From the NCBI GenBank assembly GCA_032358255.1, contig JAULBX010015973.1, forward strand, positions 1 through 64,000: a stretch of DNA of 64,000 bases, written 5' to 3'. Origin of the DNA: Heterotrichella gracilis (taxonomy: Eukaryota; Sar; Xanthophyceae; Tribonematales; Xanthonemataceae). The notes beneath the pieces are model-generated. The model saw nothing but the letters and a program-made list of their open reading frames with translations, searched no databases and was not told the origin of the DNA. The position numbers were made by a program, and so were the translations under genes. Of the stretch, positions 143-59,700 are shown in pieces. Within the stretch, counting starts at the first letter, position 1. Every line of letters begins with the position of its first letter.

Positions 143-296
143 ACTACCACCGGCGCCGCCTTGAACCCCAAACCCTAAGCGATAACCCCTAAATCCTTGT
201 AGGATGCACCCTAGCCATTTCTGCATCAGCTGACCACAGCCAGCACTGCCCTGAACCCCACTCCCTGAACCCTAAACCTAAACCTAAACCTCGCAG
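143..296 (+). repeat. Exon-edge echoes plus CCCTAAA-like tract before an SPT6 exon
   Basis: The start of the exon at 297 is copied imperfectly upstream. Bases 199-256 resemble 304-360 (shared GCACCCTAGCCA, CAGCTGACCAC, CACTGAAC-like blocks). A shorter copy at 148-168 resembles 341-360. Each copy is followed by a degenerate telomere-type tract (169-193 and 257-290, AACCCTAAACCTAAACC). The true acceptor TCGCAG lies at 291-296. The left flank (25-95) is a GGT-rich simple repeat. Confidence 0.75.
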
Positions 297-3200
297 GGTC
301 TTGGAGGTGCACCCTAGCCAGTTCATGATCCAGCTGACCACCGCCAGCGCCGCACTGAACGACGACGCGGCCTGGGAGCGGCGGTACCTTGCTGACGAGG
401 ACGAGTACTACAAGGTGGTCAGTGCGCAGGACAAGCAGGAAGCGGCGGCGGCGGGCAGGAAGGCAAAGGGGAAGGTGGGTGGTAGGGAGTGTGGTGGGGG
501 TGTGCGGTGGGTGTGGCAGTACAAACGACATGCGGGCATGCAGCATGCTGCTGGTGGGCATTGCGGCATGCACTGAGAATTACATATCATGGGTGTAATA
601 AAGAACGCACCTCGTTGTTTCCAGCAGTTTTGTAGGGCAAGTATCCTTCCAGCGTGTTGAATGCACCACTCTCGCATCAGATTGTCAATCTGATGTTCAA
701 ACTCCCCCCCCTTTTTCCCCCCACCGCAGACCTTCATCTCCCGCCCCGTGAAGCACCCCTCCTTCAAGAACGTGTCCATGGCCGAGGCGGTGGCGCAGCT
801 GGAGGATGCCCCGGTGGGCAGCGCCATCTTCCGGCCCTCCAACCGGGGCTGGAACTCCATCAGCGCCAGCATGAAGGTGCACCATTCGGATGCAGAAGGG
901 CCGCTCATTGTGCATACGGAGGTCAGGGAGGCTCCAAAGGTGGGTGGGTGGAAACCTATTTGAACCCTGGCAATTTTTTTTGTGCACATTGAGGTCAGGG
1001 AGGTGCCAAGGTGGGTAGGCGGGGTGTGGGGTGGGTACCCAAGAGAATCCTAGCAAGCCATGCGTGGGTGGGGGCATAATAGCAATGCTTCCGGCGCCGG
1101 CGATTTGGGACTAAAGAATCCCAAAGAACCATAGTGGGTAGGGGGTAGGGCGGGATCCGCCATTGCTGGGGAGCATGAAGGAAGCTCTAGGGCCGATGCA
1201 TGAGAACCCTTGTGAGGAACGAGCGATCATGAAGGACCACCCACGCCCACGCACATGCACACCATCGCAACACCCCCTGCCACTGTCCATTGCCCCTCCT
1301 GCACTACCCACCACCAGTGCCCTCCTCACCACCCACCTCCCACCCCCTGCAGAGCGGCGCCAACGCTGCCGCCAACCTGAAGCTGACCACCCCGCTCACC
1401 ATCCAGCTGTACGGGGGTGCCAACAGCGACAGCCAGCACTACGAGGACCTGGACGAGCTGGAGGCGCGATACGTGGAGCCATACTGCACGGCGGTGGCGC
1501 GGATAGTGGCGCACCCAAAGTTCAAGGAGGGCAGCTGGCCATCGGTTGAGGTGCGTGGGGGGATGATGGGGGGGTGCCTTGGGTGGGGGTGCAATGTGTA
1601 GGGTCACTATTCCACATATATTGTGGGAGAGTATGGTGGATGTGGCATTGCATTGTTCGGGTAAAACCACAGCGCAGGAGGCTTGCAGTGCATGCTAGCG
1701 CCACATGGTTACAAACCCATGTCCTCCCGTCCATGATCCATCCTCCACCCCACAGCAATGAAGGGCATTTCTGCAGCCCTAGTCAGTGCCGACAAACTAT
1801 TTATAAGCACTTGTGTGCAGGCGCATCTCTTCGCTGATGAACTTTAAATATACACCCTAATTCCGTCCTTTTTTCTACGATTGCAACTCATTGCCGACAA
1901 AACCTGAACACCCTCCCCTCCTCCTTTCTGCAGGCCCAGCTCATTGGCGACAAGAAGCGCGTGCCCCCCAACCGTGCCGTGTATTGCTTTGGCCTGGGCT
2001 ACGAGAAGCCCGGCACCTACTACCTGGGGTTCATACTCAGCAACACGCCGCACAGGGAGTACTTTGCCGCGCTGCCGTCGGGGTACTACTTCAGGGGGAA
2101 GGTGCGTGGTGGCGGGTGGGAGGGGGGGAATGGGAGGGAGGTGTGGTGCGCTCCTGGCAGCGGTGGGTGGTTATGGTGGTTGCATCATGCACTGCGCGAT
2201 ACCCTGCACGGCCTGTGTGTGAACCTTAATCGGCGCCTAGCTTTGGACATGTGTCAACAGCGCCCCCTTTCTGCCTACTGTACCGCGGGTGGATGCAGAT
2301 GCGCAGTCTGGTGTTCATCCCTAAACTCCCAACCCTTGGCCCCCTCTGCCCATGGGTGCTGTGCAGCCTGAGCCATACCCTAAACCCATAATTATATCTC
2401 CCTGCTCCCACAAACCATGTGCAGCTTGGATCACATCGTGGCTGCCTTCAAGAGCGATCCTAAACCCTAAACCCTGATCCCTCCCCCCGTAGGTGCTGTG
2501 CAGCCTGGACCACATTGTGGCTGCCTTCAAGATCGACTCCAAACCCTAAACCCTACTCCCTCCCTACGCAGGTGATGCGCAGCCTGGACCACATCGTGGC
2601 TGCCTTCAAGAGCAACCCCGCCGAAGCCAAGAAGAAGTACGCGATGGATAACCAGCACGAGGCGCCAGCCTACCGTCCCAACCAGACCCCCCAGCAGCAC
2701 TACCAGCAGCCGGATGCGCAGGCCTACGCCCCCCCCGCCCCCCCGCAGTATGCGGCGCAGTACGGCGTGCAGCCCAGCGCGGCATCGGACGTGGGGTACC
2801 ATGGGTATACGGCCACGGCGCCCTCAGGTGGGTGGGGGGTGGGGGTGGTGCGGAGGGTGTGTGTTGCGTGTGGAAGGCCGGGGGGAAGGTACAACCTAGA
2901 CAGGGTGGTGGTGTTGCGGCGGTGTTGCGGTGGCATGCATTGCGGCTGGTGGCCCGGTGTGGGGTCCGCTTGCAGAGTGCTGTTGGCCGAGGTCTGATGC
3001 ACGTGGCTGCAGCCCGGTGGCGCAATGCTACCACTCGCCGGGGTATTCGACACGTATGGATAACCCACATGCCTGTCGTTTCCTCCCCATGTGGATCCTG
3101 CAATTGACCGGCCCCCTTGGCTCCCCCTACCTGCAGGCATGGCGTACGCCTCCGCACCCCCTGCACCCCCTGCCGCACAGCCCTGGGACCAACCCCCCCA

Positions 3201-4315: not shown

Positions 4316-6855
4316 ATGGCTTTCAGCATGAGCAGCGCGCTCTGCGCCAAGCCTGTTGCTCTGTTTAGCTCCAAGACATCGAGGTGCGTCAGATGCATGC
4401 ACATTGCAATTTTGGGGGCAGCTGCATCCACGCACGAAAGCCTGGAGCGGCCTGCGAGCAACCCACTTCAGGGCATGCATATTCCTGTTTGGGTTTGGTT
4501 TGCGCACCGATGAGTGGCTGCAACGCGCAAGAAAGTGGGGAAGCATAGCTGAGGAGGGTGCTCATGGCCACGTGTTACGCAACGCAGGGCTTCGGCCAGA
4601 GTGCCCGCGCGCCACCGGTATGCCACAGTGTGCGAGGCTCAGGCGGTGGACAACCTGACTGGAGTAGTGTTCGAGCCTTTCAACGCGGTATGTAGCATGC
4701 ATGCATATTCCGCCTCTTGGGCGCTGCTTGCGGCACCTAATCTAAACCAAGGCTTGGTCTAGTCAAGCACCCGCACTTGGTGGTCCTTAACCTTTTGCGT
4801 TGTGGGCACGGTTTTCCACGCCTTGGAATGCTAAGGCTGCATTGCTTGTCCACTTTCAGCCCTGCTGGGTCACTTTCTGCATGGCAATGCCGTCATCCTA
4901 ACCCAAAGAGGCATGTCATGACGTCCCTGCTGACCCATGCAGGTGAAGGGCGAGCTGTCCGTGGTGGACAAGACCAACAGCGCGGTCGAGTCCTTTGCTC
5001 GGATGGACTACCACCCTGACTGTGAGGCGGCTGTCAACGAACAAATCAAGTAAGCAGTGTGCATGGGTGCACCTTTTATAGCCCACCCTTACTAGCCAGA
5101 TTATACTCCTCCAAGTTGGACTTGTCAACCCTTGGACGAAGCTAGCTCCACACTACAACCCCTACGGCCACACCTGTCCATGGTAGTTGACACCCGCAGT
5201 GCTTGCGCTTGCAACCAGGGTTGTTTGGCCTCGCTGTTGAGAGGCATAGAGTCTATAAACACCTGCCATGGGATGCCCACGCCCCACCCCTGCGCGTCCA
5301 ACCGCACCCACAATCGTGGTGCGCAACGTACTTGAATGGTGTGCTCAAGCTAAATTTCTACAGCTTGCCAGTATTCTTTGAGCCACCCACATTGCATGGT
5401 GATGGTGCACAGACACTTTGCCCTTCGTGCTCACACCACCTAAAATTAACAGAGTATGATGAATAACTTGCGGCACCCCGTAACGGGCATAGGCACTACC
5501 CAGCTGCTCATGCGCCCCCTCCCGTCTGCAGCATCGAGTACAACGTGTCCTACGTGTACCACTCCATCTACGCCTACTTTGACCGCGACAACGTGGGCCT
5601 GCCGGGCTTTGCTGCCTACTTCAAGAAGGAGTCGGAGGAGGAGAGGGGGCACGCAGAGAAGCTCATGGCCTTCCAGGTGCGACCCTAAACCTGAAACCCA
5701 AACCCTAAACCCTCCTTCTTTAGGAGCCAGAGGAGGAGAGGGGCATGCGGAGGAGCCTTCCAAGTGCGACACCTAGTGCAGGGCTTATCAATTCTAGCAA
5801 CCCTAAACCCTTCCTTCCAGGTACTGCCGCCAACGAGTGCTGTCAGAAAGTGCACATGCTTTTACAATTCCAACCTCTCAAAATGCTGATGCCCAGCGTT
5901 TCAACGCCACTGGGTGCTCCACACCATCGCGAAATCTCCCCCCTGCCCTATGCAGAATGTGCGCGGCGGGCGCGTGCGCCTCCAGACCATCCTGGCCCCG
6001 GAGGTTGAGTTCAACCATGATGAGAAGGGTGATGCGCTGTTTGCCATGGAGCTGGCGCTGTCGCTTGAGAAGCTCAACTTCCAGAAGCTGCGCCACCTGC
6101 ACGACGTGGCGGACAAGTGCGGGGACGCGCAGATGGCGGACTTCATAGGTGAGTGGAACCCAGTCCAGGGGCACCCTGTCTAGGGTTCTTGGGTTGCTTA
6201 GGGTCGTGTTAGTGGCGGACGAGTGTGGTGACGCGCAGATGGCGGACTTCATCGGTGAGTGGAACCCAATCTAGGGGAACCCCGTCTATGGTTCTTGGGG
6301 TGAGCGGTGTTTGGGGTCTTGCTAGTGGCGGACGAGTGTGGTGACGCGCAGATGGCGGACTTCATCGGTGAGTGGAACCCTATGTAGGATCTTGGGGTGG
6401 ATGGTGTTTACGGTCTTGCTAGTGGCTGAGAAGTGCGGGGACGCGCAGACGACGGGCTTCATTGCTGAGTGGACGTGTAGAGTTTTGGGGTGGGCGTGTT
6501 TAGGGTTTTGCCAGTGGCTTACCCACCATGCATTCATGGCTATAGTTGAAACCCCCAGCAAGCCCAGTGACCAACTGCATTGAGACAGCTTGCATCACCT
6601 GCTGCATTGGAATGTTGGTCTCAGCCCGCTACATGACTGGATGATGCATTGTTGGTTTCAGCTCGCCATGCCTGGATTATCGCCATCCCCGTGCACACCT
6701 TGGCCGTCCACTGTTCCTGTTTCCTCCCTGCAGAGGGCGAGCTCCTGAACGAGCAGGCTGAAGCTGTGAAGAAGGTGGCGGAGTACGTGGCGCAGCTACG
6801 GCGCCTGGGCAAGGGCCACGGCGTGTGGCACTTTGACCGCCTGTTGCAGGCATAG
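4316..6855 (+). CDS. Chloroplast ferritin
   Basis: Ferritin assembles a 24-subunit shell that oxidises Fe(II) and stores iron, here predicted in the plastid stroma. Exons are 4316-4383, 4588-4687, 4943-5049, 5532-5676, 5956-6148 and 6734-6855. Phases all agree, giving 244 residues. The start [19 protein letters not shown] opens a Ser/Ala/Arg-rich transit peptide running to about residue 45, followed by an extension peptide ([13 protein letters not shown]). The four-helix bundle shows ferroxidase-type residues: [10 protein letters not shown] in helix A and [11 protein letters not shown] in helix B. The C-terminus is [15 protein letters not shown]. Length and layout match plant/algal ferritins. 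The introns after exons 4 and 5 contain copies of the adjoining exon ends, so mis-splicing or alternative donors are possible. Confidence in function is high. Confidence 0.95.
5684..5820 (+). repeat. Echo of ferritin exon 4 3' end with CCCTAAA tracts
   Basis: Bases 5722-5768 (GAGCCAGAGGAGGAGAGGGG onward) resemble the end of exon 4 (GAGTCGGAGGAGGAGAGGGG at 5630-5649, to CTTCCAG at 5676). The copy is followed by GTGCGAC, like the true donor. It is flanked by CCCTAAA tracts at about 5684-5712 and 5800-5812. Confidence 0.75.
6181..6470 (+). repeat. Three tandem copies of ferritin exon 5 3' end and its donor
   Basis: The last about 44 bases of exon 5 (GTGGCGGACAAGTGCGGGG to GACTTCATAG, ending 6148) recur at 6211-6254, 6323-6366 and 6422-6465. 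The first two are followed by the same GTGAGTGGAACCC as the real donor. Spacers carry degenerate TAGGGTT/TTGGGG motifs. Copies 1 and 2 share GAGTGTGGTGAC and so derive from one another. Copy 3 keeps the original AAGTGCGGGGAC but has lost the donor (GCTGAGTGG), so it arose separately. Confidence 0.88.
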
Positions 6856-8204: not shown

Positions 8205-8233
8205 TAGTTAGGGTTAGGGTTTAGGGTTTAGGG
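8205..8233 (+). repeat. Interstitial telomere-type tract, TTAGGG/TTTAGGG mixed
   Basis: Four consecutive units read GTTAGGG, TTAGGG, TTTAGGG, TTTAGGG. The last two match the Arabidopsis-type telomere repeat found in many green algae. The tract lies between genes and is not attached to an exon that I can identify. Confidence 0.85.
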
Positions 8234-20954: not shown

Positions 20955-23900
20955 ATGCGCCTTGCTGTCTCAAGGTGGCGCCTACCAGCCCACCGGGTCG
21001 CTTTTTTAATAGCCAGAACCTTCTTCCTTGCACTTGTGGTACCAAGGGTGGCTCATGCTGCGAACAGCCAGGTATGTAACTTGTGCTTGTCAGAACAGAT
21101 CGGGGGAAAGATTTGCCAAGCCTTGTGCTGTTTAAACCTCTTGAAAAGCGCCCCCATTTGCTGTCCTTGCTACAGCCCTACACAGCAACCGCAAGCACGT
21201 TACATAAGCCACCAGTGTGGGATATGCACGTGACTGCCTAGCACTGACTACCACCCTCCTCCTCGTGTTTCACCCCCCAATCGCGCAAACCAAAGCAAGC
21301 GCACGCCACACGTATTCCAAACTCTGTGCAGAGTACAATATGCCTGGGCATGCACCGCATCAGGGCCTCCCACGTGCTACCCTTGCACCACCCCCCTTGC
21401 AGGCCTGCCACAGTTGCCTGGACGAGGAGGAACCCTCTGCTCCGCAGGCGTGCGGCACAGCCTACCCCTGGGTCCTCCCTGCCTTGGACCACTGGTTCGT
21501 CAACGCTGAGCAGTCCCTGAAGGAATCCACGCAAAGCACGGTGGAGGCCATGCAGGCCATCCGGGACACCAGGTGGGGCGACTACAAGGTGGGCATGGTG
21601 GAGGTCATACTGCGCTACAACGGGAGCACCGACCGCTACGACATGGAGGAGGTGCAAGTGAACAAGCCCAATTTGCCTCACAAGCCGGCGGGGCAGCTCA
21701 TGGTGAGGTGCATTAGGTTCTTCCAGTAGGGTTTGGGCACTAGGGCTGGGCAAAGTAGGGTTTGGGAACGAGGGTTTGCGTGCACATGCACTTCATGCGC
21801 CAACATCCAATATCCCATGGCCATGCCGTGCCTTGGGGTGTTCCGTTAGGGTCTGGGAACTAGGTTTTTCTGGGGACCTTTTGATGTATGCTGCAACATC
21901 TCATGACCATGCCGTGGCCTTGCACATCAGCTGGTGGGCCTATCTCAAGATTCAGCACAGCTTGGGGGTGAATCCTCACCCATACCCCATGGCATCGACC
22001 AGGTGCTCCGCCGCGCCGTTGCCCGCCACAATCGCGACCTTGTGGCTGCCCCTGAGCTGGCCAAGCGCGAGCTGCGGTTCATGATCGGGTCGGAGGACTT
22101 CCCATACGTGTGGAAGGGGTCAAAGTGGAAGCTGCCGGCGTTTGCGATGTGCTACGAGCCGATCAAGAATGACATACCAGTGCCTGGTGGGTGGAGGGCA
22201 TCTGATTGGTCCGGCGTGTGCAGCCTCGGTGGCAGGGATGGAATGTAACGCACCCGTTGCCAGGATGTGGGGCCATGCAACTGCAAGCGCAGGTGGAGTC
22301 AGTATTGTCCCAGCTGGATCCACTTTGCCTTGCATGGGCTACAATCCCAAAATAGTAAATGCTATTGCATGGTTCACCTCATGGGATGCTCCCAGCGTTC
22401 ACCGGTCCCTCCAAATTTCCTTTAGATTTCACGTGGGAGCTGTACCCCGAGGTGCGCTACTCCAACACCAGCTGGTGGGCGGTGCGCAACCTGCTGCACC
22501 ACAAGGCCTCCATGACTGGCTGGAAGCACCGCAGGCGGGCCATCTTCATGCGCCACTTCATCGGCGTGGGGCCCCGCAAGACCATCATGCCCCGCTTCAT
22601 GTGGATCCATGGCAATGGGACGGACATGGAGCAGGTGTGCGGGCGGACAGGTGCCGCCACTGTCTTAGAATCCTCTTCTCGTATATATTAAAAGAAAGAA
22701 TCTAAACAAATGCACATTTGTGTCATCACCTGCGCCGTGTGTGCATCAGACACCATGGTTCGTCGGTGGTCAAACGCCATGGGCATCACCCTTGAATGCC
22801 TTCCACCGAGGCGCCACAAGATCACCCTAAGGGTAAATCAATGCATGCCAATTGTAACACACTCATGGTATACACCTTTTTCCATACACTGTATGCGCCA
22901 GCTGCCGTTTAAATCCACATCGACCGCTGCTTTGTGCAAGCCTGTTCCTGAATTTGGCTATGGGGTGTATCGCCACAGGTGGGCGTGCAGGTGGATGTGC
23001 AGGACTCTGGCTGGGAGGCCAAGGGTGACAACTTCCAGTGGCTGGATGAGTGGTGCAAGTACCGCTACCTGGTGCACACTGCGGGTTTCTCATACTCCGC
23101 AGGGCTCAAGTACAAGCTGGCATGCGGTAAGGAAAAGGGCATGGCTGTGGGCGCTGTTTGCATATTTGGATCCCATATGTGTTTTGTATCTTACAAACAT
23201 GTTCTTGTTGCCATTGCTGAATGGGCCAAAATTTAGGGGCATTCAACAGTACCTTACATCCACTGTCTGCTTTAAAAGTGCTGGTGTGCCTGCGGGTGAC
23301 CTTATCTTCCCCACGCCCATCCTGTGTCCTGATCACTGGGGTTCAATGAAAGACATTTACTCTTCAGATGGATCTGTGTGTGAGCTTTGTGCGGACAATT
23401 CTGTATATGCGGCGATGTAGCTATAACACCCCACAACTCCTGCAGGTGGCCTGGTGTTCAAGTTTGAAAACAACTTCCGGGAGTTCTGGGAGCCCGGTCT
23501 GCAGCCCGGCAAACACTACATCAGCCTGAGTGAGGACATGGGCAAGTGGGAGAGCGAGACCCTGCCACGCATCAAGCAGGTGAGGGGTGCCCTGCCTGTG
23601 AATGTTGCATGTGCACAGCTGAGCAAGGTGGTCAGTACATGCAATCCCGCCATACAGCAGGATGACCAAGCACCCCCGCGGTGAATTGCACACCAGCAGG
23701 GGTCACGTGGTGCATCCTGCGTGCGGCTGGGGTCACCAGGTTCACCAATGCAATGATCTGGTTATTACTATTATTTTCACAACGGAGAGAGGCTACGGGC
23801 AGAATCAGAACCACAAACACACCAGAGGGAAGATTTGCCACTTGTAATATATATAATTTAGTATTATGTGGATCAATTACAAATTATTCATCATACATAG

Positions 23901-24122
23901 TTGTACGTATCATTACTGCCCCATCCCCACCAATCACCTTTCCCTTCCCTGCAGGCCATTTCTGAGTCCGAGGCGCTCCCCGAGGACGAGCCCCCTCCCA
24001 TGGCGGTGGCCGGCCAGCACTTTATCATGACGCAGCTCAACCGCAGGGCGCTGTCCTGCTACTGGTACCACGCAATACTGCGATACAGCAAGCTGTACTT
24101 CCACCCGGACAAGGCTGGCTGA
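20955..24122 (+). CDS. GT90 (CAP10/POGLUT-like) glycosyltransferase, paralogue A
   Basis: Exons 20955-21071, 21403-21702, 22003-22186, 22426-22634, 22979-23126, 23446-23579 and 23955-24122 give 419 residues. An N-terminal hydrophobic stretch (about residues 12-35, VAFLIARTFFLALVV) is a signal peptide or type II anchor, so the enzyme is expected in the ER/Golgi lumen. The C-terminal half shows the GT90 signature: YRYLVHTAGFSYSAGLKYKL, then a Gly-Gly-Leu-Val-Phe-Lys block, EFWEPGLQPGKHYISLSED, and a basic/Tyr-rich end (SCYWYHAILRYSKLYF). Family members transfer glucose or xylose to proteins or glycans using UDP-sugars; the acceptor here is unknown. Shared exon lengths link it to the two genes downstream. 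It has the longest exon 2 of the three (300 versus 255). Confidence 0.85.
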
Positions 24123-31379: not shown

Positions 31380-31406
31380 GGGGCATAAATGCCCTACACA
31401 CCAAAA

Positions 31407-31555: not shown

Positions 31556-31618
31556 AGTACACAGAACTGAGTTGAAGTCGGTTCTGATGGTTTTGGGCCT
31601 TTTTAAGGTACAAACAAA

Positions 31619-31788
31619 CTGACTGTCTCTGTAAACTAGTCCATGCCGTCATTCCCATTGAGTCAGCACTGGTATCAAGGTACAAGGCAAAAGTGGCGCT
31701 GAATTCAACACCATATGTGCTTTGTGCTTTGACAGTGCTACTGACTCGTTGGGAATGACGGCATATACTGATTTACAGGGACAGTCAG
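31619..31788. repeat. Long imperfect hairpin / MITE-like element 2
   Basis: The left arm at 31619-31671 (CTGACTGTCTCTGTAAAC...ATGCCGTCATTCCCA...GAGTCAG) pairs with the right arm at 31733-31788 (CTGACTC..TGGGAATGACGGCAT...TTTACAGGGACAGTCAG). There are few mismatches and the loop is about 61 bases. The sequence differs from the hairpin 64 bases upstream, but size and design are alike. Confidence 0.85.
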
Positions 31789-32507: not shown

Positions 32508-35500
32508 ATGCGGGGCCTGGGACTGCATACCCATATACCCATACTCCGTGTAAATATCGATATCAAGCTTGCTGTACTGCTGCTGGGAGTCGTATGGCAC
32601 GCCTGCTCTGCCGCAAAGCCTGGCAGGACACAGGTAAGGCGACTCAGTGCTAGAGCAAGGTGTCCCAGACTCTGGGCCAGAGCCTTTGCAGCTGCAAACA
32701 CCTTGCTAGCTCAAGGTTCCTGTGCTAGGTGAACGCGCCTCCTTCTACTTCAGTAGTGTTGTAATGTGACCACGAAGCTCCTGCCATCTATCAGGTCTGC
32801 TAAACCTTCTTTAGTAGCCACCGCCAGGGCCACTCCAGAGTTGTCCACATGGTTAGCATGCCACCCACTCCCAGCACTGATTCATAGCTGCCCTTCCTGC
32901 CAGGACTGCGCTCTGCACCACCCATGGATCCTCCCTGCGCTGGACCAGTGGTTTGCCAACGCCGAGGCCTCCGCCAAGCAGTCCTCTCAGACCACGGAGC
33001 AGGCCCTGCAAGCCATCCGAAACCTCACCTGGGGCGAGTTCCCACCCGGCAAGGTGGAGGTGACACTGCGCTACAACGGAAGCAGTGGCCGCTATGACAT
33101 GGAGGACAGCCAGCTGTCTGTGCCCAACCAGCCCTACAAGCCTGTGGGGCAGCTGGCGGTGGGGCGGCAAAGCAAACCCTAAACCCTAAACCCTAAACCC
33201 TTCAAGCCTGTGGGGCAGCTGGATGTGGGGCTGCACAGCAAACTAAACCCTGTGGGACAGCTGGAGATGGGTTTGCACAGGAACAATAGGCGCGAGTTGC
33301 TACTACAGCTACATGGCAGGTTTGTGAGCCCAGCTTGACTTACTTTGAATCTTGACCTCCTAGCACACATGCGTAGGCAAGGTGAAGGGAGGGGTCCTCA
33401 CCAGACAATGGCCAAGGTCCTTGAGGATGCCTGCAACCTTTTTCCTCTTCTACTGCAAGCAATACACCTTTCCATGCACCCCAGCAACAGAGGGCAAGGG
33501 TGCACCAAGGCCACCTCACCCATTGCACCAGCGCTTTGCTGTTCTGCATCTTGTGCTCGTCACCCACCAAGTGGGTGGAGGCTGTGAGTACATGCAGGGA
33601 CTGTTTGTTGGGCAATGCAGGTGCTGCGCAGGGCGGTTGAGCGGCACAACAGCGACCTTGTGCGGGAGCTGGGTCAGCGCGAGCTGAGGTTGATCCTAGG
33701 GTCTGAGGATGAGCCCTATGTGTGGAGGGGAGACAACTGGAAGCTGCCTGCCTTCTCGATGTGCCATGAGCCGGGGAGCATCGACATCCCGGTGCCAGGT
33801 GGGTGCATGCGGGTCACAGACCGCGATTCCACCACCTGCAAACCCTAAACCCACCTCCTGCAAACCCTGAACCCACCTTGTATAAACCCTAATCCGCCAC
33901 CTGTAAACCCTAATCCGCCACTTCCGTACGCGTGGCCCAAGGATACATCTCATCACACAGCCCGCAGCCCTCAGGCAATTCATGCAACACATCCCTGTTG
34001 TGCATTATTCTCGAGAACCCCTTGTGCACCCGCAGACTTCACATTTGAGGTCTACCCCGAGACCCAGTACACCAACACCAGCTGGTGGGCTGTGCGCAAC
34101 CTGCTGCACCACAAGGCCTCCATGACCCTGTGGAAACACAGGAGGCGGGCCCTGTTCATGCGCCACTTCATCGGGGTTGGCCCCCGCCAAATCATCATGC
34201 CGCGCCTCATGTGGATTCACGGCAACGGAACGGATGTGGACCAGGTGGGCGCAAAGTGGTTGTGCATCTGGCATGCCGGCTACTGGCTCAGTGCTGCATG
34301 GGTGCATGGTTTTGTTGGCCCCTGTGCCACATGGCGTTGCATGGGGCACATGGCTTTGTACGTGCATGCAGCCACCTGGATCTACTTGTTCAGGTGCATG
34401 CAAGGTGTTAGCATTTGGTTGTGCATGCGCTGCACAACCTACCCATTCATGCCGCTTGAACCATGCGCCACCAGAGACAATGATCACGACGTTAGGGTGC
34501 ATGCGCCATGTAGGGCAGCACCTTGACCTTGCCCTGGCTGCCGCAGGTTGGTGTGGCTGTGGATGTTGAGGACACGGGGTTTGTGGGGTCCAACGAGGGG
34601 GCATTCCGGTGGCTGGACGAGTGGTGTACCCACCGCTACCTGGTGCACACGGCGGGCAACTCATACTCTGCGGGGTTAAAGTACAAGCTGGCATGCGGTG
34701 CGTGGTCACCGCTGTGTCACCACCATACATTTCATCAATTGAAATTACAACTTGTATTTGAATTTTAATTAAATAGATTTCATTAACAAATAATCTTAAT
34801 TGAACAATTTGGTTAGATGTGCGCAAACTACTGTCATGTGGCGGGCTGATGTGGTGGCTGTGTGCAGGATGTAGCAGCGGGATGCAGTGACAGGGGTTGT
34901 TCACGCAAGCGACTTGTTGCTAGGTGGCGGGCCATGCGTAGGATCTGTAAACCGCACCATAAATCTTCAACAAGAGCACTCGCCATTAGTCCATTTCAAG
35001 TGTCCTCATCCTGCAGGTGGCCTGGTGTTCAAATTTGAAAACCAATTCCGTGAGTTTTGGGAGCCTGGCCTGGAGGCTGGCAAGCACTACCACAGCCTGA
35101 GTGAGGACATGGGGAGGTGGGAGAATGAGACGCTGCCACGCATCAAGCAGGTGGGCATGCACAACGGTCTTGGCACTGGGTGTGACTTATCACATCACGT
35201 GATAGTGCGACACTAAGCTGTGCTGCAACATGTGCTCCAGAGAATTTTGCTGACCAGATATTCACAGGTCTGCATTAAAGGCATAGAAACTTGTTTGTGT
35301 GAAAAGGATTGCTGCATGTTGATCAATTCAAGTGAGACGTCCACGCTCCCACGCCTAATCATTTTCTTCCCTGTGCAGGTGGTCCTTGATGCTGAGCACA
35401 TGGCTCAGAATGCGAGGCCACGTGTGGCGGTTGAGGGTCAGCGCTTTGTGATGACTCAGCTCACGCGCCGATCGCTGTCCTGCTACTGGTACCATGTGAT

Positions 35501-36253: not shown

Positions 36254-39200
36254 ATGGCAGATGGAGGGTCTTTAACCGCGGAATTTGCTGCTAGGCGCTT
36301 TGGGTTGGTGGGCAACACAGCCCTGGTGACAGGGGGGACCAAGGGGCTTGGCAGGGCGATAGTGGAGGAGCTAGCGGGACTAGGGGCGACGGTGGGTGGC
36401 AATGCAGCACAACATCATACATCGGACCAGTATGTTCTAGTGCTTGATGCCACTTGGTGGGGCATGATGGGAGCAAGACGGTGTTTGCCAGACTTGTGGA
36501 CAAAAATAGATGCATGCATGCATGTGGTCCTTGCGCCTTGAGCAAACAGGGAATGCGCCAACATTGCACGGTGATGAACCAAATACGTTTCCCCACAATA
36601 TTGGACGGTGGTGTCCCTGGCGCCTAGTCCTGCATGTCCACCAAACACCCTTGCAGCTCGTTGGATATAACTGCAGCCTACCTGCCCCAGACTGCTGTCT
36701 TATGACAAGGTTTCCGCCCGCATCGAACCCACTCCCAGCCCCCGCACCGCCCCATGGGTGTCCCATACTGCTCTCTAATAAGGGTCCACCCTATGCGCAC
36801 TGAACCGGCGCCCTCCCACCGCCCCCGCAGGTGTTCACCTGTGCCCGCAACGAGGAGGAGCTACAAGAGGCGCTGGCAGGCTGGGCTGCGCAAGGGCTGG
36901 CGGTGAAGGTGCACAACCCGAACCCTACCACTAAACCCTAAAACCTCAGTCCTGGCCCTGCCTGAGCTCCAGGAGGCGCTGGCAGGCTCGGCTGTGCAGG
37001 GGCTGGCTGTGGAGGTGCTTACTCTAAACCCTAAACCCTATGCGTTGCCCACCATGTACCCCTGTAACCACTGGCGACGACCACAGGGGCTGGGACCAGG
37101 AATACCGCCAGTCCTGTGCTAGATGTATACTGGTACAACGTATCTACACACACCCTTGGTGTTGCACTTGTGCTGTGCATGGGAGATTGCGTCTTCATGC
37201 TTTGCGTTCTCATGCCATGGACTCGCACCCCGTGCCATAAATTGCGGCAGCAGTCAGCATGAACATCAATGAAACCTTGCTATGATAACTTAGCATCCAA
37301 TCACTTACCATCCCATCACTGTGGCGCATGCGCCACCTGATGTGCTTCATGCTGCATCCGCCCCCTTGCAGGGCAGCGTGGCGGATGTGACCGATGCGGC
37401 CCAACGGCAAGCCCTGATGGAGGCTGTGTCATCAGCCTTTAGCGGCCAGATGACGATACTAGGTAGGCAGATGGCTGGTTCGAGGGTTTAGGCTTGAGCA
37501 GATGGCTAATTTTAGGGTGTGGGGAACCCAATTGCTCACCACACCAATGCAGCTGCTTAAGGTCACTAGAGGAATGATAGTGGAGGGGTGGGTGCTTTTC
37601 TATTCATGAAGGCAGATAAATCAGCCTTGATTTATCTTCAGCTTTGGTATTTTTGGTCAGTTTATCTTTAGCCTTGAAATGAAAAATCCTTATTTTAGCT
37701 TTCACCCTTGCTGGTTCAGGTTTATCTCTATTTTTTCCGTGTGCCCATGAGCGGGCTAGCCCATCGTTTATCTCTATCTTTCAGTTTTTGAGGCCTAATA
37801 TCCTCATCTCTCTGATTTTCGGGCCAATTATCTTGTATATCTGCCTTCATGGGTCGATGCTTTGCTTTTGGGGTACAAGGCCTGCCCCCACTGCAGGATG
37901 ATAAGATGAATTATGGGAAATTCTTGCCTGTCCAAGTCCCCCCCTATGATTTGATGCTGAAGCTCACATCCGACCCTGAAGAGTTTCCACCTCGTAGTGA
38001 ACAAAGTGGGCACCAACAACATCAAACTATCAACCCTAAACCCTTTTCCCTTGCAGTGAACAACGTGGGCACCAACATTCGCAAGGCCAGCGCCGACTAC
38101 ACTCCACAGGAGTACAGCAGCATCATGGCAACCAACCTGGATTCAGCCTTCTTTATGACACAGGCAGCATTCCCCCTGCTCAAGGCATCTGGCAAGGGGT
38201 GTGTGGTGTTCAACACATCGGTGGCGGGGGGGCCAACTGCGATGCGCAGCGGGAGCATCTATGCCATGACTAAAGGTGGGGGGGCATTTGGTGATGGTGA
38301 TTGGGTGGGGGGTGCAGCCATGCCCAGGTAGCGGTTTGGGCGCACCAATGGGCATCGGTAGGAGATCGATAAACCCATGCTCTTTCCGAGAAATAGGAAC
38401 ATTTGGGAGGGATTTTGAACATATATGCCCATGGAGATTGAGGTTCAGTTGCACCATTTGCGGCAGCGCCAAACTTGCTGCTTCACATCCATTGGCCCCC
38501 ATGCTCTACCCCCAAAAAAACTACAAACCCTTACAAGTGCCGATTGGCCTCTTGCAGCCGCGCTGAACCAGGTGACCAAGAACCTAGCCTGCGAGTGGGC
38601 TGGGCTGGGCATTCGAGTCAACTCGGTTGCCCCCTGGTACATGGCCACACCCCTGGTGGAGCATCTGCTGTCTGATGAGGCCTACCTCAAGGGGATTGTG
38701 GACAGGACGCCGATGGGGAGGGTGGGGCAGCCAGAGGAGACGGCAGGTAGGGCCAGGCCGACACAGAATGTTTAGGTATCATGTGCGTGCATGGTGGGTG
38801 TCTTGCTCTAGGGTGCGTTTCATCTTCTGAATGTGGGTACCCCTAGGGTGCGTGTCCATTGTTGGTGCATGTTTGTACTTGGGGCGGGTCCTAGTAGGTG
38901 CCACTGGTTGGGCGCGACGGCCGCCGCTAGCAGTGCGCATGGAGTGCGCTCTATCCTAGTGATGGTGATCGGCGTTGGTCTCATGTATGTTTGCATGTGA
39001 ATGCTTGCCATCATTGAAACTTTATCACGGATGCTGCACTCGATATAATCGACGCCTGCAGGTATATATAGGATCCATGTATACAGGCCTTGCGCACCAC
39101 GGTCGCCACCTCACTGTTGCATCCACGTCCCTGTTTGGCGCCTGTGTCCATTTAGCGGTGGATATGGTGCTGAGCCCCTTGAACCCATGCTCCCACCCAG

Positions 39201-47700: not shown

Positions 47701-50700
47701 TTGATTGGAAATCCATACCCCATGTCCCTACCTTTCAAGCACGCCCCGACACAGCGCTATAACCTCCCCTCCAAACTCCGCCCCGCTGCCCCCCTGGGGC
47801 GGCACCAGCCCCACCACCAGCCCCACCACAGCCAGTGCAGCAGCCCGCACAGCCGCCGGTCCACAGGCCTCGGTGACCAACCACAGCCGCTGGCGGATGG
47901 GGGCGAGGAGGGTTTCCGCCATGGCGTTAGGGTCTGCGCTGCGTGCGTTGAGTGACAGCAGGGCCCTGAGCTGCAGGAGGGCACCGTGGACCTGCGGTGG
48001 GGTTTGAAATTCAAAATTGAGTTTAATAGTCCAGACTTCCAAACCATTGAGTGGCCTTGAGCTGCAGGAGGGCACCGTGGACACCAATGTGTAGACTAGA
48101 CGTACACTACAAGAGGGGGGGGGGGGGTCAACAATTTAAATTTCAAACTTCCAGGATTCAAACAGGACCCCATTGATAGATGCTGAGAGTGGTGAAAAAA
48201 AATTGCGTAAGTGTAGCAGATCAACTATTGAAGCAATGAGGGCACATACGGATTGGCAACCACACCACATATTTCTTGCAAAATTGTACATATTTTTTGG
48301 ATATCCTTTGCCTGCACCAAACACCATCCGCGTGACTCCTCATACCCAACCCAGCCCATACTTTTTGTACCCACTCCACAACCTGCAGCCATCTCGCAAT
48401 CTCCGAGCCCACCACACCACTGGCCCCCCTCCCAGCCCCCTCCTTACCTTATTGTGGTCCACCACGGGAGGGCACAGCGGAACCAATTCCACCAGACCCT
48501 GCAGCACTCCCAGCAGCTCTTCGGGTGCGACAAGTGGCGCCAGCGCAGCCGCCGCCAGCTGGCGCACCCCCATTGGCCGAGCCATGGCGCATGCGCGCAC
48601 CACCGGGCCAAAGGGGGCGGGGGACAGCTGCTCCCCCACGCCGTGCTGTGTGTGGGGGGAGGGCCTACAGGCAGGGGAGGTTGTGGTGGGTGTTGGTGTG
48701 GGGAGGGTCTGTACCGCTGAACCGAATAAACTCACTGACTACTGCTGAGAATACCCGTGCAATACCCTAACTACCGCAGGATAGGCATGCAAGTAATGAA
48801 AAATTGGTAGTAAGACGAACGTTTTGTAACAATGCAACAGCGACGCTGCCCAGAGGTTTAAATTTCGCACTGGCCCTTTTTGCTCCAGTAGGTTTGATGA
48901 AAACAGGCCGACTTTATTGGTGTCATCAAGGGGCCAGCGATACAAAAATGATAACAATGCAACAGAGGCGACGCTGCCCAGATATTACATTGCAAACTAG
49001 CCCCTTCTGGGGCCCAGTAATTTTGACAAAAACAGGCCGACTTTACTGGTGTCATCAAGGGGCCAGCGATACAAAAATGATAACAGTGCAACAGAGGCGA
49101 CGCTGCCCAGATTTTACATTGTAAACTAGCCCCTTCTGGGGGGCCCATTATTTTTGACGAAAGCAGGTCGACTTTACTGGTGTCATCAAGGGGCCAGCGA
49201 TACAAAATCTATAACATAGAGGACAGCCCGCATCCACTGCGTTTGTTACTGTACAACAAAGCCCACCTCAGCTGCCCCAGCACCCTAAACCCTAAACCCT
49301 ATACCCTAAGCCCTAAGCCCTAAGCCCACCTCTGCTGCCCAGGAGCACCCCAGGGAGCACCCTCAACCCTCTAGGTACCTACATGAGCCGCGCCAGCAAC
49401 AACTTCAACCCTGAACCTTCAACACTAAACCCTACATGTCTTTCCCACCTTAAACGCGCCAGCAGCATCCTCAACCTAGAGGGACCTATGCCGACATGAG
49501 GCTCGCCAGCAGCACCCTAAAACCTAAATCCTGGACCTTAACCTGAACCCTAAACCCTACACGTATTTCCCCACCTGAGGGGCGCCAGCGGCACCAGCAC
49601 CACATGAGCCGTGCCAGCAACACCCTAAACCCTACATCCTAGACCCTACTCTGAACCCTAAACCCCACAGGTATTTCCCCACCTGAGGCGCGCCAGCAGC
49701 ACCAGCACCGGCGCCAGGCTGGGGTGCACCCCCTGCCCCCCCACCTCCAGCCCACCCGCAGCCTCCTGGAGCTGACCCAGCAGGAAGCCATGCAGTTGCG
49801 GGTAGCGCTGGAAGAACTCCGACCCCGTGATGGCCTTTTTGCTGCTGTCGCGCTCCCCCTTGGCCAGGTTCTTGAACCCTAGGGTCCTGAGGGCGAGGGA
49901 AAAGAGGAAGGAATTTTTTTAATGTGGTTCAACCAGGGACAGATGCAGTTACAAGCACAAGGGGAATGAGATAATAAAGAGATTATTTTACTATCCATTA
50001 CCCTTGGTGTCCCCAAAGGAACGCAACCGCAATAAAATATATCAGGGATGCATGGACCAATACCATTATCGAGTACTTCTTCCTCATTCATAAACAAAGC
50101 GTCACTAGGCAGCAGAAAAGAAAAGAAAAGGAGCGCCAAGGGGGTGCATGTAGCGTGCACAAACAATTTACCTGAGGATGAGCGCTCCAAAGCAGAGTGA
50201 GGCGGCGTTGCGCACCTCCCACTCGGGTGCACCCATGCCTATGATGGCCACCTGGAGACCTGGGGCACACCGGGGCACAGGCGTTTCAGTAATGGCAATT
50301 ATAGTGGTTTTGTCAGATCCCTGATTCCCAACACCATTGTCTATGGGTTCGCTTTCTTTATTCCTTCTGTTCAGGTAGGTGCACGCAAACCCTAGCAGCG
50401 CAAGTGCAAACCCCAATAGAGTGCAGCACGCACAAACGCACCCTCGGCACAGAACCCTGATGTGTCCACCGCTAGGTTCTTGTCGCTGAACGCCAGTCGC
50501 AGCACGTTAAGTGCGTGCACCCTGGGCCAAGGGGGGATGGTTCCCCTCCTCTCGCCAACAGCGGAGGCCAGGGCAAGGCACTTGGACATGCCGCGCCGGA
50601 ACAGCACCTGCAGGGCAATCGGAAGGGGTTGTTAGGATTCTGTTAGGGTTCTGTAAAGGTTTTGTGGGGGATGGAAAGAGCTCATAGCAGGAGGCATGGC

Positions 50701-53700
50701 TGGTTGAATATGGGTCACCCAGACACACAGCCAGGGAACTGGCAGGTTGCCATGTAAGGAAGTCATGTGGTACTCCGCAATGCCAATACCAACAGAAATA
50801 GCAGTACAATGATGAGAATCCCACCGCAATTCAGTAGATCCAAAGCTTCCTGCCAGAGTAGATTCCCGATCCCACTCATGCCCTCATTACAGTATTTTTT
50901 GCACTGTGGCAAGCAACAGCGCACCAAAGGCCAGCAGCAGCAGCCTTGCACCGCGCCGCATGGTACCCTCATGCTACCCTCCCTGCTCGGCACTGGTCGT
51001 GCCACCTACCCCGTTATTACCACCCTCCCAATCCCCGTTCCCTCCTTGCTACCCCCACCCCCTCCACCCTCATCCCCCCTTTTGCTGTCCCCCCCACCAC
51101 CATCGATAACACACCCACCTTGTGCGCGGTGGCCTGCTCCGCAAGGAACAGCGCACCAAACGCCAGCGGCAGCCCCGCGCTCCTGCGTATAATATCCTCC
51201 CTGCTCTGGCCGGGCCTTACCATGTGGGTAAGTACCCACTCCAGCCAGCGGCCCGGCAGGCAGTTGAGTGCAGGCGAGGCCTCCTGCAGCAGCCTCTGCA
51301 CAAGAAAAAGCAAAGCGAGATTAATCAACACATTTCAATGATAAATCAACGCATTAAGAATTTTACACATATTTCAACAATAAAATAAATCATCACATTG
51401 ATAGCTACCAGGGGCCATGTTTTTTTAGTCCGTGCTCAATTTGTCAAGCACAGGGCGGTGGCTGAGGATACGGCTGAGTCAGGGAGAGAGCCAGCCCCCC
51501 GTGTCCCAACATTTTCCATGTCCCTCCCTGGCAGTGGTATAAGCAGTGCCAAAATGAATCATGCGGGTCGCATGTTCAAGGCATATTTCTGGCTGTATTT
51601 GCATAGACAGCATGCACCTGACAAGGCACCTACCTGGCAGAGGGCGCTGAAGCCGATCTTGGTCTTATCGATTGCCCCGTTGTGCTTCATCTGGCACAGC
51701 ACGCGCACCATGTGGTCACCCATGGCACACAGCTGGGAGGCGTCCAGCAGGGGTGGGTGGGCAGGGGAGTCGTCGCCTGAGGGAGGGCCAGAAGGAAACC
51801 TTATGCAGGTCTTGCGTAGGCAGCCATGCGGGGTGCAATCAACGGGGCACGTTTTTAGAGTTTGATATTCGGGAAAATACCTCTGCTTTCCCATCTGCCA
51901 AAGCCACATCAAGGGTACTAACATTCTGATGAGAATATTTATTATCTTATTACTTTGGCCACGTGCCGGAAGTGTGGCTCCCAGCAGCAAAATCTCCTGC
52001 ACTAGGGTCCTCACCTGTATTGCAAGGGGTCTCACAAGTGGTTTCTCAGTGTTCCTAGGGTTTTGCCCCCACCTGCCAGCGCCACGTGGCTTGCCAGGGT
52101 GCCCATGAGCAGCGACACCTCCTTCATGGTCAGCCAGCACCCAGTCACAACCACCTGCGCCTGAGGAGCCACCTCCGGGTCGCAGCCGCCATCTGAGTCC
52201 CCATCGCCCTCCCCTCCTCCATCCTCGTCCACATCCTCGGCACCCACGTTGGACTCCTGGGATGGGGCAGGGAGCGGGGGCAGGGTCAGTGGTGCAGTTC
52301 GGTCAGTGGGATGATGGCGATGGCTGCATGTGGTGGGGTGCGAGCCAGTGATTGCACGGGGATGCAATGATGGTGTGATGGTTGGTCAAGGGCAATCTAC
52401 GCCAGGGGTGAGGGATGCCACATGGCCCTGTGACGCTGCGCGGGGTAACTTGCATACTAGCCCCTTTTGGTGCAACAAGATTGCTACATAACTCCCGACT
52501 TTACTGGGACCAAAAGGGGCTAGTATCACGCGGTTGAAAACAAATGGAAGCCGCGCGGCATTCGCCCAATGACGCTGCGCGGGGTAATTTGCGTACTAGC
52601 CCCTTTTGGTGCAACAAGATTGCTAGATAACTCCTGACTTTACTGGGACCAAAAGGGGCTAGTATCACGCGGTTGAAAACAAATGGAGGCTGCGCGGCAT
52701 TCGCCCGGTGACGCTGCGCGGGGTAATTTGCGTACTAGCCCCTTTTGGTGCAACAAGATTGCTACATAACTCCCCACTTTACTGGGATCAAAAGGGGCTA
52801 GTATCACGCGGCTGAAAACAAATGGAGACTGCGCGGCATTTGCCCGGTGACGCTGTGCGGGGTAATTTGCGTACTAGCCCCTTTTGGTGCAACAAGATTG
52901 CTAGATAACTCCTGCCTTTACTGGGACCAGAAGGGGTTAGTATCACGCAGTTGAAAACAACAGCGGCATGGGGTCCCTTCTCTACCTGTGACCCATTGCA
53001 CTAGGGTTTCACTAGGGTTTGTTCACCCGCCTGTGGCCACTTTTACTAGGGTTTCGCTAGGGTTTCTCCACCCACCTGGGACCGGTTTTACTAGGGTTTT
53101 ACTAGGGTTTCTTCACCCACCTGTGGCCTGTGCAGCAGCAGCAGCGCCAGCTCAGCAGCCTGCATCAGCAGCCCCAACAGCAGGCGCAGCCAGTCCGCCA
53201 TGTGGCGCGCCCTGGCCACATCTGACGTGGCATCGGCCCATTGGACCTCGGGGACCAGGTAGCGCAGCGCCAGCAGGGTACCGTGGGCGAAGCTGTGGCG
53301 ACAGAATAACAGAGCAGTTTTGAGAATCGATGGAGAGCCCGCAGCAGGTTGAAATGAAACACCTTATTGTGCGCGCAAGTTAATATATTTGCTGATAATT
53401 AGGATAGAATACCTGATCCCAAGGAGAAGCAGCACACACCCTACATGCACAGGTAGTGACAGAACAGGAGACGAATAATAACCAAAACCCTAAACCCTAT
53501 AGTTGTACCTGTGGCGGCAGGCTGCTGGCATGTCCTCCCTCCCCTCCTGAATGACATCTGCCAGCTCCCTTGTGAGGCTGGTCAGGAGGCACATGGAAGC
53601 GCAGAAGCGGGTGGAGGGGGTGGGGGCTGCGGGGGGTGGGTGTGGGGGGGTTGAAGGGTGATGTCGGGGGGAGGCGGATGGGATGCAGCTTGTCAGCTGG

Positions 53701-56700: not shown

Positions 56701-59700
56701 GTTGGCAGCAGCAGAGGCCACACTGGCATCGCCCATGGCGGCCACTGTCTCTGAAACCAGGTCGGGGCGCAGGCGCAGCAGCGGGGCGCTGCCTATGCGC
56801 GCCACAATGGCGGCAAGGGGGGCGTACTTGCCCTTTTTGTGGGGGCCTGCAGGGGAGGGAATCGGATGTAGGCCCCTTTCCTTCATCGTGCGTACATTGC
56901 TCCTGCACCAGTATTGTGAGCCTGGGTTGGGTCCGTGAATGTCGATGTCAAATAAACGTTGTAATTCTTGTATTTGCTGAGGTGTGTGAGCTTCCTCCCC
57001 GCATTATCCTCCACCGTATTTGTTCAAAATGCCTGCTCAGCGCATGGGTTCCAAACGGGTGCGAGGGAGGGTTTTCAATAGGGTGTTACACTGTCCAATC
57101 AGTCATGAACCGCTTGCACGCATTGGGTCAGGCGCGTTCGGCTTCTTCCTGACTCGTGGCGTTTGATGTCCGGAGCTATCTGCCCCTCAGGCCATTGCTA
57201 GCGCTGGGCCAGGGGGAAAAGAAGCTCCGGTTGCAAGGAACACAGGAAGACCGCAGGCAAGGTAAAACTGTGCAGGAAGGTGCCACAAATTGGAAACCTT
57301 GGTGCCATTGCGTTTTGAACCATAGGAACACCTGTTTCAAACCTTTAATTGCGGGTTCTCCACAGTGTTTTGCCCACATGGGGTGCGTCCCCATCTAAGG
57401 TCTGCAAGGGTAGAGATTGGCAAAACATTGTGCCGCCCAGGGCTTGGCACGGATTTGGTATGGTCAAAGGTTAAGGGTTTTGGTGCAAGGTCAAGGGTTT
57501 GGTACGTGCCTAATGCCAGCAGGTCCCTTGCAGCTGTGTCAATGAAGTCGTGGGGAGGTAGCTCCTCCCCACCTGGTGGGTACTCCACTGCCCGCTGCAG
57601 CGCCACCACATCCAGCAGCAGCTCAAAGGCGATGTGCACTTGCTTCACTGTCTGGGCAAGAGGGTCCTGGGAAATTGGGAGGGTTTATGTTAGGGTTTTG
57701 TCCAGGTTTGCCAGGGTTGTGTTTGAGTTTTGAGTAGGGAGTGCAGAGCATGTAATTCATCACCGTAGCACAGAGTTTTGTGTTCCTGAACTTGACCTCC
57801 AGTCGGCTTCTTGTCAAGGGTCTAATTGACCTTAGGAAGGGTTTTGGGTAGGGTGTTGCACTGTCCAATCAGTCATGAACCGCTTGCGCGCATTGGGTCA
57901 GGCACGCGCGGCTTCTTCCTGACTCGTGGGGGTTGATGTCCGGAGCTATCTGCCCCTCAAGCCATTGCTAGCGCTGGGCCAGGGGGAAAAGAAGCTCCGG
58001 GTGGAAAAAGGACTAAGATATGAATGAATTGTGTGGCAATACATGGAACGCCTGGTGTAGCTCTTACCAATCAAGACGGGATATCTGTTAGCCACGCACA
58101 GCAAGCTTTACAGCCAGCAGTCGACAAAATGCACATTAACAAAATACAAAGAGGAAGAGCATGCAATAACATTTGACGTTTCTATAGCGCTAGCATTTGA
58201 CAGGCATGGGCATGCCTGGCGGGTGGCCTTTCTTGGTGCATTTTGGACCCAATTTGGTGGATGCATGCCACCTGGGGCTTACATGGTACAACAACTTGAG
58301 GCTATTGGGTTAAGAGTTTAGGGTTTCCTCACCTCCCAGTTGGCCCAGCACACCTCCATGACAGCCTGGCACATGGCGCCACTGACACATGGCAGCAGCT
58401 GGGGGGTGGTGGAGCAAGGGGGAGGGGGGGTGGCGTAGGGGAGGTCGCCATCACCCGCCTCGCTACCAGCGCTTGCAGAATACTTCATGTGATCCTGGAA
58501 ACAAAGGAGCAAAGTAGCTTATATTGGAATTTGGTAAGATTCAAAGCAATGTAGCTGCGTTGACACCGCCAGTGCAGAGATGGTATAAGCAGTGCCAGGA
58601 CAGGGTTGCTTGGCGCCGGGCATGTGTGATGGACTGCTGATCTTGGCAGAGCCCATAGCAGGCCCCGTCAGACACATGTGTGCCCACTCGCATCACCACC
58701 ACCAAAACCCTCCCCAACCCTAGCCAAGACCCTACCTGCAGCGCCCCCTTGACCCTCTCCAGGCACACACACAGCGCAGTCACTGCATGGAACTTGTAGT
58801 GCGCATCAGGGGCACCCTTGGCAGCAGCGCACACATGCGGGAGGGCGCCCTGGGTGAGCATGGCCCAAGGGAGGTGGTGGTTTCCTCCCCGTTGCAGTGA
58901 CAGCCGGGCCAGGAGTACCTCACTTGGGAAGGCGGCGATGAGGCCTGTGGGGACGGGGATTGGGGTTTAGGGATTGGGGGTTTGAGATGACTGCAGTGCC
59001 TATACCCTGGCGAGAGCGCAACAAGCACGAGACTGTCAGAGATTATGATAGGTATTAAAAATACTTCTATGCATTTCTATTTGATGGACAATGTTTTGTT
59101 CATTGTCAAAACATCGATCGTTCACGTTGATTGTTACAGTAGTCAGTGGAGAAGTATACTAGCGCCCTGCATGCTGCATATGCACGAGGAAGGGAAATGC
59201 AGTGAATGAAAGGGAAATGCAAGTGAATGAAACCACTGGCAGAATCAGCGCCAGGCAGGCAATGCAACTGCAGAGGGACCCCAAAGTGCCATGATTCCAT
59301 AATGCAAGGGAGGGGTTTCCATCCCATGGTCACATGTGCCCAACCTTTGAGTGCGCATATGTGGCCAATGGGGGACAGGCGTGCCAGCTCAGCAGCCAGG
59401 CAGCTGCCCTCTTCTCGTAGTGCCACGTCAGCAATACCCAAGGGGGGCAAATCGCGCAGGGGAGCAGATGATCCTGCTGTTTCCCCGACAGATGCCAAAT
59501 CCGTGGCATTCTCCACAGTGAGCCGGCCCATATCTACAGCGATTTCCTCCCCTGCTGAGAGCCTCCACCCCCCTTGTTGGTCACCCACCAAAGGGGGTGG
59601 AAGTGTGGAGAGGAAGAGACCTGAGGAGTAGTGGAGGGCGGTGGCCAGGGGGGTGGCGTCTGGCAGTATGGATGCAGCCAACAGGGCCACCGCTGCTGAT

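Follow-up and report, generated by a model that had tools for sequence, protein, structure and literature searches.

The window analyzed here, a stretch of 64,000 nucleotides from the genome of the xanthophyte Heterotrichella gracilis (contig JAULBX010015973.1), carries genes in which the ends of exons recur as copies, termed echoes, within the adjoining introns, most of these copies being joined by telomere-type TTTAGGG/CCCTAAA repeats. The phenomenon is real and occurs genome-wide. In the window, reading of the sequence together with alignment of exon ends to introns yielded nine clear and two weaker echo borders in SPT6, ferritin, GT90-C, an SDR dehydrogenase and THADA (Table 1), in agreement with the original prediction, made from the sequence alone, of more than ten borders in these five genes. 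All five gene names are backed by Pfam matches (SPT6 SH2_2, ferritin, Glyco_transf_90, adh_short, and THADA/Trm732); the joined ferritin exons form one clean open frame, and the joined SPT6 exons are open over five exons, with the junction to the last exon one base off in the joined model. The echoes comprise approximately 8-64 nt of exon edge together with the splice site (15-60 bases had been predicted), telomere-type repeats are found at 9 of the 11 joints, and donor and acceptor edges as well as both telomere orientations are represented, all as claimed. Several copies per border do occur, but their number ranges from one to about four, not up to about six as initially stated. The sequence CCCTAAACCCTAAA, allowing at most one mismatch, occurs 16 times in the window, where 0.04 occurrences are expected.

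The assembly that was sampled comprises 68.5 Mb in 903 contigs. The analysis covered the window, 25 further stretches of 10 kb chosen by place, and tract-centred loci (8 plus 20 short ones), while pattern counts were run over the whole genome. In a 314-kb sample there are 87 telomere tracts, i.e., approximately 280 per Mb of sample; shuffled versions of the heptamer, drawn 25 times with two of them coming up twice, occur only 0-3 times each. When the telomere words were masked and the 120-bp left and right flanks aligned to each other, a direct repeat with a score of at least 16 was obtained at 39 of 86 tracts (12/23 within the window and 27/63 outside), compared with 4.8% when 3000 places were picked at random and 0.55% when flanks were swapped. 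A second tract set, selected solely on three exact telomere units and consisting of 25 of the 28 tract-centred loci (L001, L003 and L006 were dropped as they overlap others), showed duplicated flanks at 9/25 tracts versus 0.35% for swapped flanks. In the 39 loci with duplicated flanks the aligned copies measure 19-101 bp, some including the tract or neighbouring units, and in 12 of them the tract is no more than 8 bp away from either copy. The common anatomy is A - telomere - A, a stretch A being repeated directly on either side of the tract. The heptamer found in these inserts is the same as that of the organism's own chromosome-end repeat as judged from contig starts, the only contig ends considered, where (CCCTAAA)6 occupies the first bases of six contigs. 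The genome also encodes TERT (domain match with an E-value of 4.8e-13); the telomerase reverse transcriptase RNA-binding domain appears at C626:23723-24513 as two separate matches, probably exons. Tracts also exist away from exons, as illustrated by a clean TTTAGGG tract at 8208-8233 of the window, which is probably intergenic and has unduplicated flanks.

The placement of tracts and duplications relative to genes was assessed with a gene finder, a small hidden Markov model seeded with the SPT6 and ferritin genes of the window and then self-trained, which predicted 504 exons in the 314 kb. Exon edges outside the Pfam-supported genes are therefore predictions from sequence alone, and of the 12 SPT6 and ferritin exons 8 were recovered exactly and the others correctly at one end, despite being seeds. 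Some echoes were called as exons (e.g., 36973-37014), and genes were merged; by this gene finder 82 of 86 tract midpoints are intronic, a class that is too wide owing to the merged genes. Of 82 intronic tracts, 25 are no more than 15 bp away from an exon edge, versus 11.1% expected in the same introns, and this also applies to tracts that have no detectable duplication (10/40 versus 8.5% expected). Of 823 exon edges, 33 have a terminal exon 40-mer that recurs in their own intron, whereas for the next 40 nt inward this holds in 8 of 708 cases (p 4e-4); no edge matched one randomly chosen other intron (0/823) or the reverse complement of its own intron (0/823). Telomere 10-mers are present in 20 of the 31 introns with echoes and in 61 of the 439 other introns. 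In the sample, exon edges are thus copied more often than exon interiors and telomere repeats co-occur with echoes, both as the original prediction had proposed. Chance as the origin of the echoes is ruled out by these excesses of tracts, duplicated flanks and exon-edge matches over their controls.

Tandem duplications were found at 58 loci, of which 32 span an exon edge, 13 lie within introns, 2 within exons and 4 between genes, and 7 fall into none of these classes. Edge-spanning duplications thereby account for 32 of 56 non-exonic loci versus 17.7% expected. Duplications at edges are expected to remain visible for longer because one of the copies is constrained; the edge excess persists when a twofold detection advantage is allowed for (p 3e-6 for all loci, 0.003-0.005 in stricter subsets) and becomes marginal in the stricter subsets at a threefold advantage (p 0.054 and 0.046), the strict edge subset comprising 21 loci hand-picked by exon fraction after 11 loci with exon in both copies had been dropped. 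A purely geometric origin, in which duplications arise at random, exonic ones are purged and those at edges stay visible longer, is weakened by the survival of the excess at the twofold advantage. At least two telomere 6-mers are contained in 20 of the 32 edge duplications and in 3 of the 13 intronic ones, with 17.5% for random intronic spans; the duplications bearing telomere words are an edge-specific class. Two individual loci may be mentioned here. The donor-edge echo at C2 4374-4808 (L009) consists of near-identical 53-bp units, is apparently recent, and its first copies have no telomere repeat between them, while a telomere tract is present elsewhere in the same intron. At C13 ~104840-104940 (L024) an assembly gap of 100 N lies within an intron bearing a strong non-telomeric exon-edge duplication.

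Searches of the whole genome, which make no use of gene models, revealed a telomere 11-mer within 30 bp after the donor word AGGTGNG at 1992 places and at a distance of 31-61 bp at 805, the latter count including long tracts that begin closer. In the reverse order, with the telomere 11-mer within 30 bp before AGGTGNG, 575 were counted, a number inflated by acceptors reading CAGGTG. Copies within arrays were counted separately in these pairs, and the pattern-reversed controls gave 0-3 per strand, which constitutes a weak null. After donors the ratio of G-strand to C-strand tracts is 1219:773, and within 25 bp before the acceptor word TGCAGG there are 819 C-strand and 456 G-strand tracts, so that the strand preference is opposite at the two ends of the intron (Fisher p 4e-46). 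Match lengths in the analysis of strand and detection were taken from the first 50 of 100 donor-then-telomere matches listed. With the tracts themselves counted, the density of GGG immediately inside donors is about double that in the middle of introns, and the density of CCC immediately before acceptors about triple; as the sense strand is CCC-rich before acceptors, the antisense tip is G-rich there.

Concerning the fate of the copies, the mismatches in the 32 edge echoes amount to 0.099, 0.099 and 0.193 at codon positions 1, 2 and 3, a pattern expected for one freely decaying and one constrained copy. Among these echoes the reading frame is lost at 11 of 13 gaps, an in-frame stop is present in 6 of 32, and when the echo is included in the SDR protein the domain score drops from 155.3 to 138.6 bits. 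Given this neutral decay, the frame breaks and the reduced SDR score, the echoes are most simply regarded as inert scars and not as hidden exons. The codon-position rates, frameshifts, stops and SDR score are grounds for rejecting hidden, alternative or tandem exons, and the earlier suggestion that the echoes could generate alternative splice sites, like a role in making usable exons, found no support. The accompanying suggestion that they contribute to intron length holds weakly, introns with echoes being longer (median 388 versus 291 bp). Few introns bear signs of recent birth: at a score of at least 12, only 2 of 470 introns start like the downstream exon and 1 of 470 ends like the upstream exon (swapped controls 0 and 0). 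Recognisable echoes are present in about 31 of the 470 sampled introns, which extrapolates to approximately 6,800 genome-wide.

These observations would be accounted for by staggered breaks at intron ends that are extended by telomerase at a G-rich 3' tip, filled in and then closed by end joining, a model to which we assign a probability slightly better than even (about 0.55). A staggered break, or two offset nicks, would open a stretch A of tens of bp that reaches from within the exon over the splice site to a few bases of the intron. Telomerase would then put a few TTTAGGG units onto one 3' tip, the overhang would be filled in, in the way that CST-Pol alpha-primase acts on telomeres and on breaks with 3' protrusions, and end joining, often at a few in-register bases, would yield A - telomere - A. 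As the original splice site would still be used, one copy would remain exon and the other would become part of the intron and decay; recurrent events at one place would generate arrays. The placement at edges would follow from tips that suit telomerase, the sense strand being G-rich just past donors and the antisense strand just before acceptors. The model is supported by the A - telomere - A anatomy, its excess and placement, the neutral decay, the strand biases, the use of the organism's own telomere repeat, the TERT gene, and an excess of in-register bases: at least two bases in register with the repeat were observed at 6 of 16 and 7 of 15 scorable joins versus 1/16 expected, where scoring was limited to joins passing a telomere-phase filter (16 on the left and 15 on the right, among 48 loci) and the loci within one array are not independent. 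We infer the geometry of the breaks, the action of telomerase and CST, and the reason why breaks fall where they do. Among the explanations considered, the originally proposed break repair with local copying and telomere addition is the best fit to the direct repeats, in-register bases, own repeat, TERT and strand biases. The broader notion that telomerase is a standing mutator of genes in this organism, capping breaks in G-rich intron ends so that introns grow by telomere-joined duplications of splice junctions, can be put forward tentatively and falls somewhat short of even odds.

Several results weigh against the break-repair model. About half of the tracts (47/86) lack a duplication at score 16, 8 of 708 exon-interior 40-mers match their own intron as well, and 61 of 439 echo-free introns still hold a telomere 10-mer. 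Duplications without any telomere 6-mer are divided into 8 edge and 8 intronic ones and are not clearly edge-biased (p 0.08 versus 30% expected), and at the stricter 10-mer level telomere sequence is found in 11/32 edge versus 3/13 intronic duplications. C-strand tracts are enriched after donors also (773 versus 243 upstream), and therefore G-rich tips alone do not account for the placement; furthermore, the strand bias could stem from selection for splicing. The join predicted to be primed is the weaker one, with at least two in-register bases in 6/16 and at least three in 0/16 cases, compared with 7/15 and 4/15 for the other join. Finally, the tract is located inside every copy of many units, and slippage of a pre-existing tract would give the same arrangement.

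The main rival, about half as probable as the break-repair model, has two steps: tracts would be seeded first at intron ends, by telomerase or another route, and, being unstable, would subsequently give rise to ordinary replication slippage or unequal exchange that duplicates the neighbourhood including the exon edge. Instability of telomere tracts is documented in the available part of PMC6410037, and such a two-step origin would accommodate the unduplicated tracts and the arrays with a tract in each unit, as well as the paralogues GT90-A and GT90-B, in which telomere-like tracts occur at the same donor free of echoes. The weaker primed join and the weaker separation of edge from intronic duplications by 10-mers also count toward it. 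Conversely, the tract was found by eye only at the joint, with none past the last copy, at C24 26516, C24 28293, C24 23558, C13 33604 and L043, and the location of tracts at exon edges is left unexplained by this sequence of events.

Selection instead of mutation as the cause of the pattern is considerably less probable. In this case telomere-like repeats beside splice sites would aid splicing, with G-runs after donors and the pyrimidine-rich C-strand before acceptors, or insertions elsewhere would be purged. The strand biases fit the needs of splicing, and duplications lying inside exons are very few (2 of 58 loci). Insertions in the middle of introns should however be equally harmless or more so, yet the ratio of edge to intronic duplications is 32:13 versus 22.5% expected, the telomere-free duplications show no clear edge bias, and GT or GC is retained in 14 of 18 echo donors (counted by eye), which is near neutral decay.

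It is very improbable that the introns themselves were born from insertions, be it introner-like or by intron gain through AGGT tandem duplication, with the tract lying at the splice site for this reason. Tracts do hug splice sites, a potato gene provides a precedent for a tandem duplication over an intron-exon border giving rise to a new intron (PMC4974935, as far as the available part of that report goes), and at a score of 8, 6 introns at their start and 9 at their end out of 470 resemble the far exon versus 1 and 1 for swapped pairs. However, one of the 2 + 1 introns at a score of at least 12 is an evident error of the gene finder, the ferritin and GT90 introns reach far past their echoes, and the GT90 intron is common to the echo-free paralogues. 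Intron birth as the main process is rejected on the near-absence of its signatures in 470 introns; with the weak excess at low score, rare births may take place alongside the echo process. An artefact of assembly or gene prediction is hardly credible: short-unit repeats are prone to misassembly and the gene finder miscalls some echoes as exons, but the copies diverge by approximately 10-20% with codon-position structure, the result for tract flanks is independent of gene models, and the pattern is present in the Pfam-supported genes of the window.

Table 1. Echo borders and related telomere-like tracts in the window (positions in the 64,000-nucleotide stretch).
Feature	Span (strand)	Exon border	Copies	Telomere tracts or linkers	Remarks
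SPT6 acceptor-edge echo	163..296 (+)	exon begins 297	163-256: intron end and ~64 nt of exon	268-290	
SPT6 donor-edge echo	940..1022 (+)	exon end 939	~980-1022	linker merely telomere-like: gaaccctgg	
SPT6 acceptor-edge array	2357..2571 (+)	exon at 2572	1 short and 2 long	2377-2387, 2459-2475, 2541-2555	79-bp period
Ferritin donor-edge echo	5677..5811 (+)	exon end 5676	~5723-5769	telomere tract on either side of the copy	
Ferritin donor-edge array	6149..6480 (+)	exon end 6148	~3 decaying copies of last 43 exon nt and donor	degenerate TTTAGGG linkers	97-106-bp period
GT90-A intron 1 start	21703..21778 (+)		exon echo not seen	degenerate TAGGGTTTGGG repeats past donor	paralogue of GT90-C
GT90-B intron 1 start	25859..25905 (+)		exon echo not seen	G-strand tract past donor	
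GT90-C donor-edge array	33159..33281 (+)	exon end 33158	two exon-edge copies	C-strand tract 33174-33201	exon's own CCCTA at inner joint
SDR donor-edge echo	36909..37040 (+)	exon end 36908	~36970-37013	36921-36942, 37024-37040	
SDR acceptor-edge echo	37998..38056 (+)	exon at 38057	21 exon nt at ~37998-38018	38032-38044	
THADA acceptor-edge echo (weaker)	47962..48082 (-)	gene finder border 47970, probably ~23 bp off	~30 bp, 91 bp away	without telomere linker	
THADA donor-edge array	49282..49682 (-)	exon 49683-49886	several	49282-49309, 49546-49559, 49622-49634, 49654-49665	108-bp period
THADA donor-edge array (weaker)	53000..53128 (-)	exon 53121-53292	45-bp units with only ~8 exon nt per unit	CTAGGGTTT linkers	

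At 21403-35488 of the window, three GT90 glycosyltransferase-like genes lie in tandem and share conserved intron positions (Pfam was run on the third only); they could serve as an internal empty-site comparison. Telomere-like sequence is present just past the same donor in all three paralogues, on the G-strand in GT90-A and GT90-B and on the C-strand in GT90-C, with an echo only in GT90-C; differing tracts at one donor suggest that this place was hit on separate occasions once the genes had duplicated. Intron 2 of GT90-C additionally contains at 33829-33913 a 22-bp minisatellite composed of CCACCACCTGC and one telomere unit (AAACCCTAAAC); the corresponding introns of the paralogues showed no such repeat in their first 70 and last 60 nt. 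Two THADA introns harbor tandem arrays, at 52425-52960 (139 bp x 3.9) and 48885-49207 (129 bp x 2.5), that share the words CTAGCCCCTT and GACTTTACTGG; a telomere repeat was not noticed in these arrays, and they are possibly a related satellite or small mobile element.

If the break-repair model is correct, thousands of natural scars, by extrapolation, in a single genome log the positions of breaks relative to splice junctions, and the same scars show how telomere enzymes behave at internal breaks. Interstitial telomere repeats, small tandem duplications and intron growth would become linked subjects, and how intron length and decoy splice sites originate could be tested directly.

Introners are repeated insertions that involve splice sites. 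The echoes differ from these in that intron birth is barely detected here and the telomere repeat is the sole shared inserted sequence seen. Each element by itself is already known, be it telomere repeats inserted interstitially at breaks, small tandem duplications, or tandem repeats near the ends of green-algal introns; for exon-edge copies joined by telomere repeats no description was found in a literature search thin on subscription journals, in line with the original view that the combined pattern was undescribed. As to the repeat itself, TTTAGGG is stated to be the ancestral telomere repeat of green algae in the available part of PMC8226300. In Chlamydomonas and Volvox tandem repeats are in excess toward intron ends and intron-exon junctions (PMC3887541), which resembles the repeats near intron ends described here, although neither exon-edge copies nor a telomere motif are named in the available part of that report. 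The duplication in the potato RdRp gene likewise extends over an intron-exon border and takes the splice site with it (PMC4974935); there, according to the part available, a new intron results, while in the present case the existing intron becomes longer and the copy decays. In mammals, CST-Pol alpha-primase makes small tandem duplications at breaks with 3' protrusions, with induced overhangs down to 43 bp (PMC8355091). That system shares with the echoes direct duplications of tens of bp and the involvement of telomere-maintenance enzymes, shown there and inferred here; a telomere repeat at the joint, a preference for exon edges and telomerase all go unmentioned in the accessible portion of that report, and the first two are present here. 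Also in mammals, telomerase was reported to insert short interstitial telomeric sequences at double-strand breaks, with flank duplication at 6/130 rodent and 4/25 primate loci in the part of the report available (Nergadze et al., 2007; PMC2246262). Like those insertions, the tracts described here are short internal stretches of the organism's own telomere repeat with in-register joins and sometimes duplicated flanks; unlike those loci, as far as described there, 39 of 86 tracts have duplicated flanks here, these flanks measure tens of bp, and the tracts lie beside splice sites at a density of approximately 280 per Mb.

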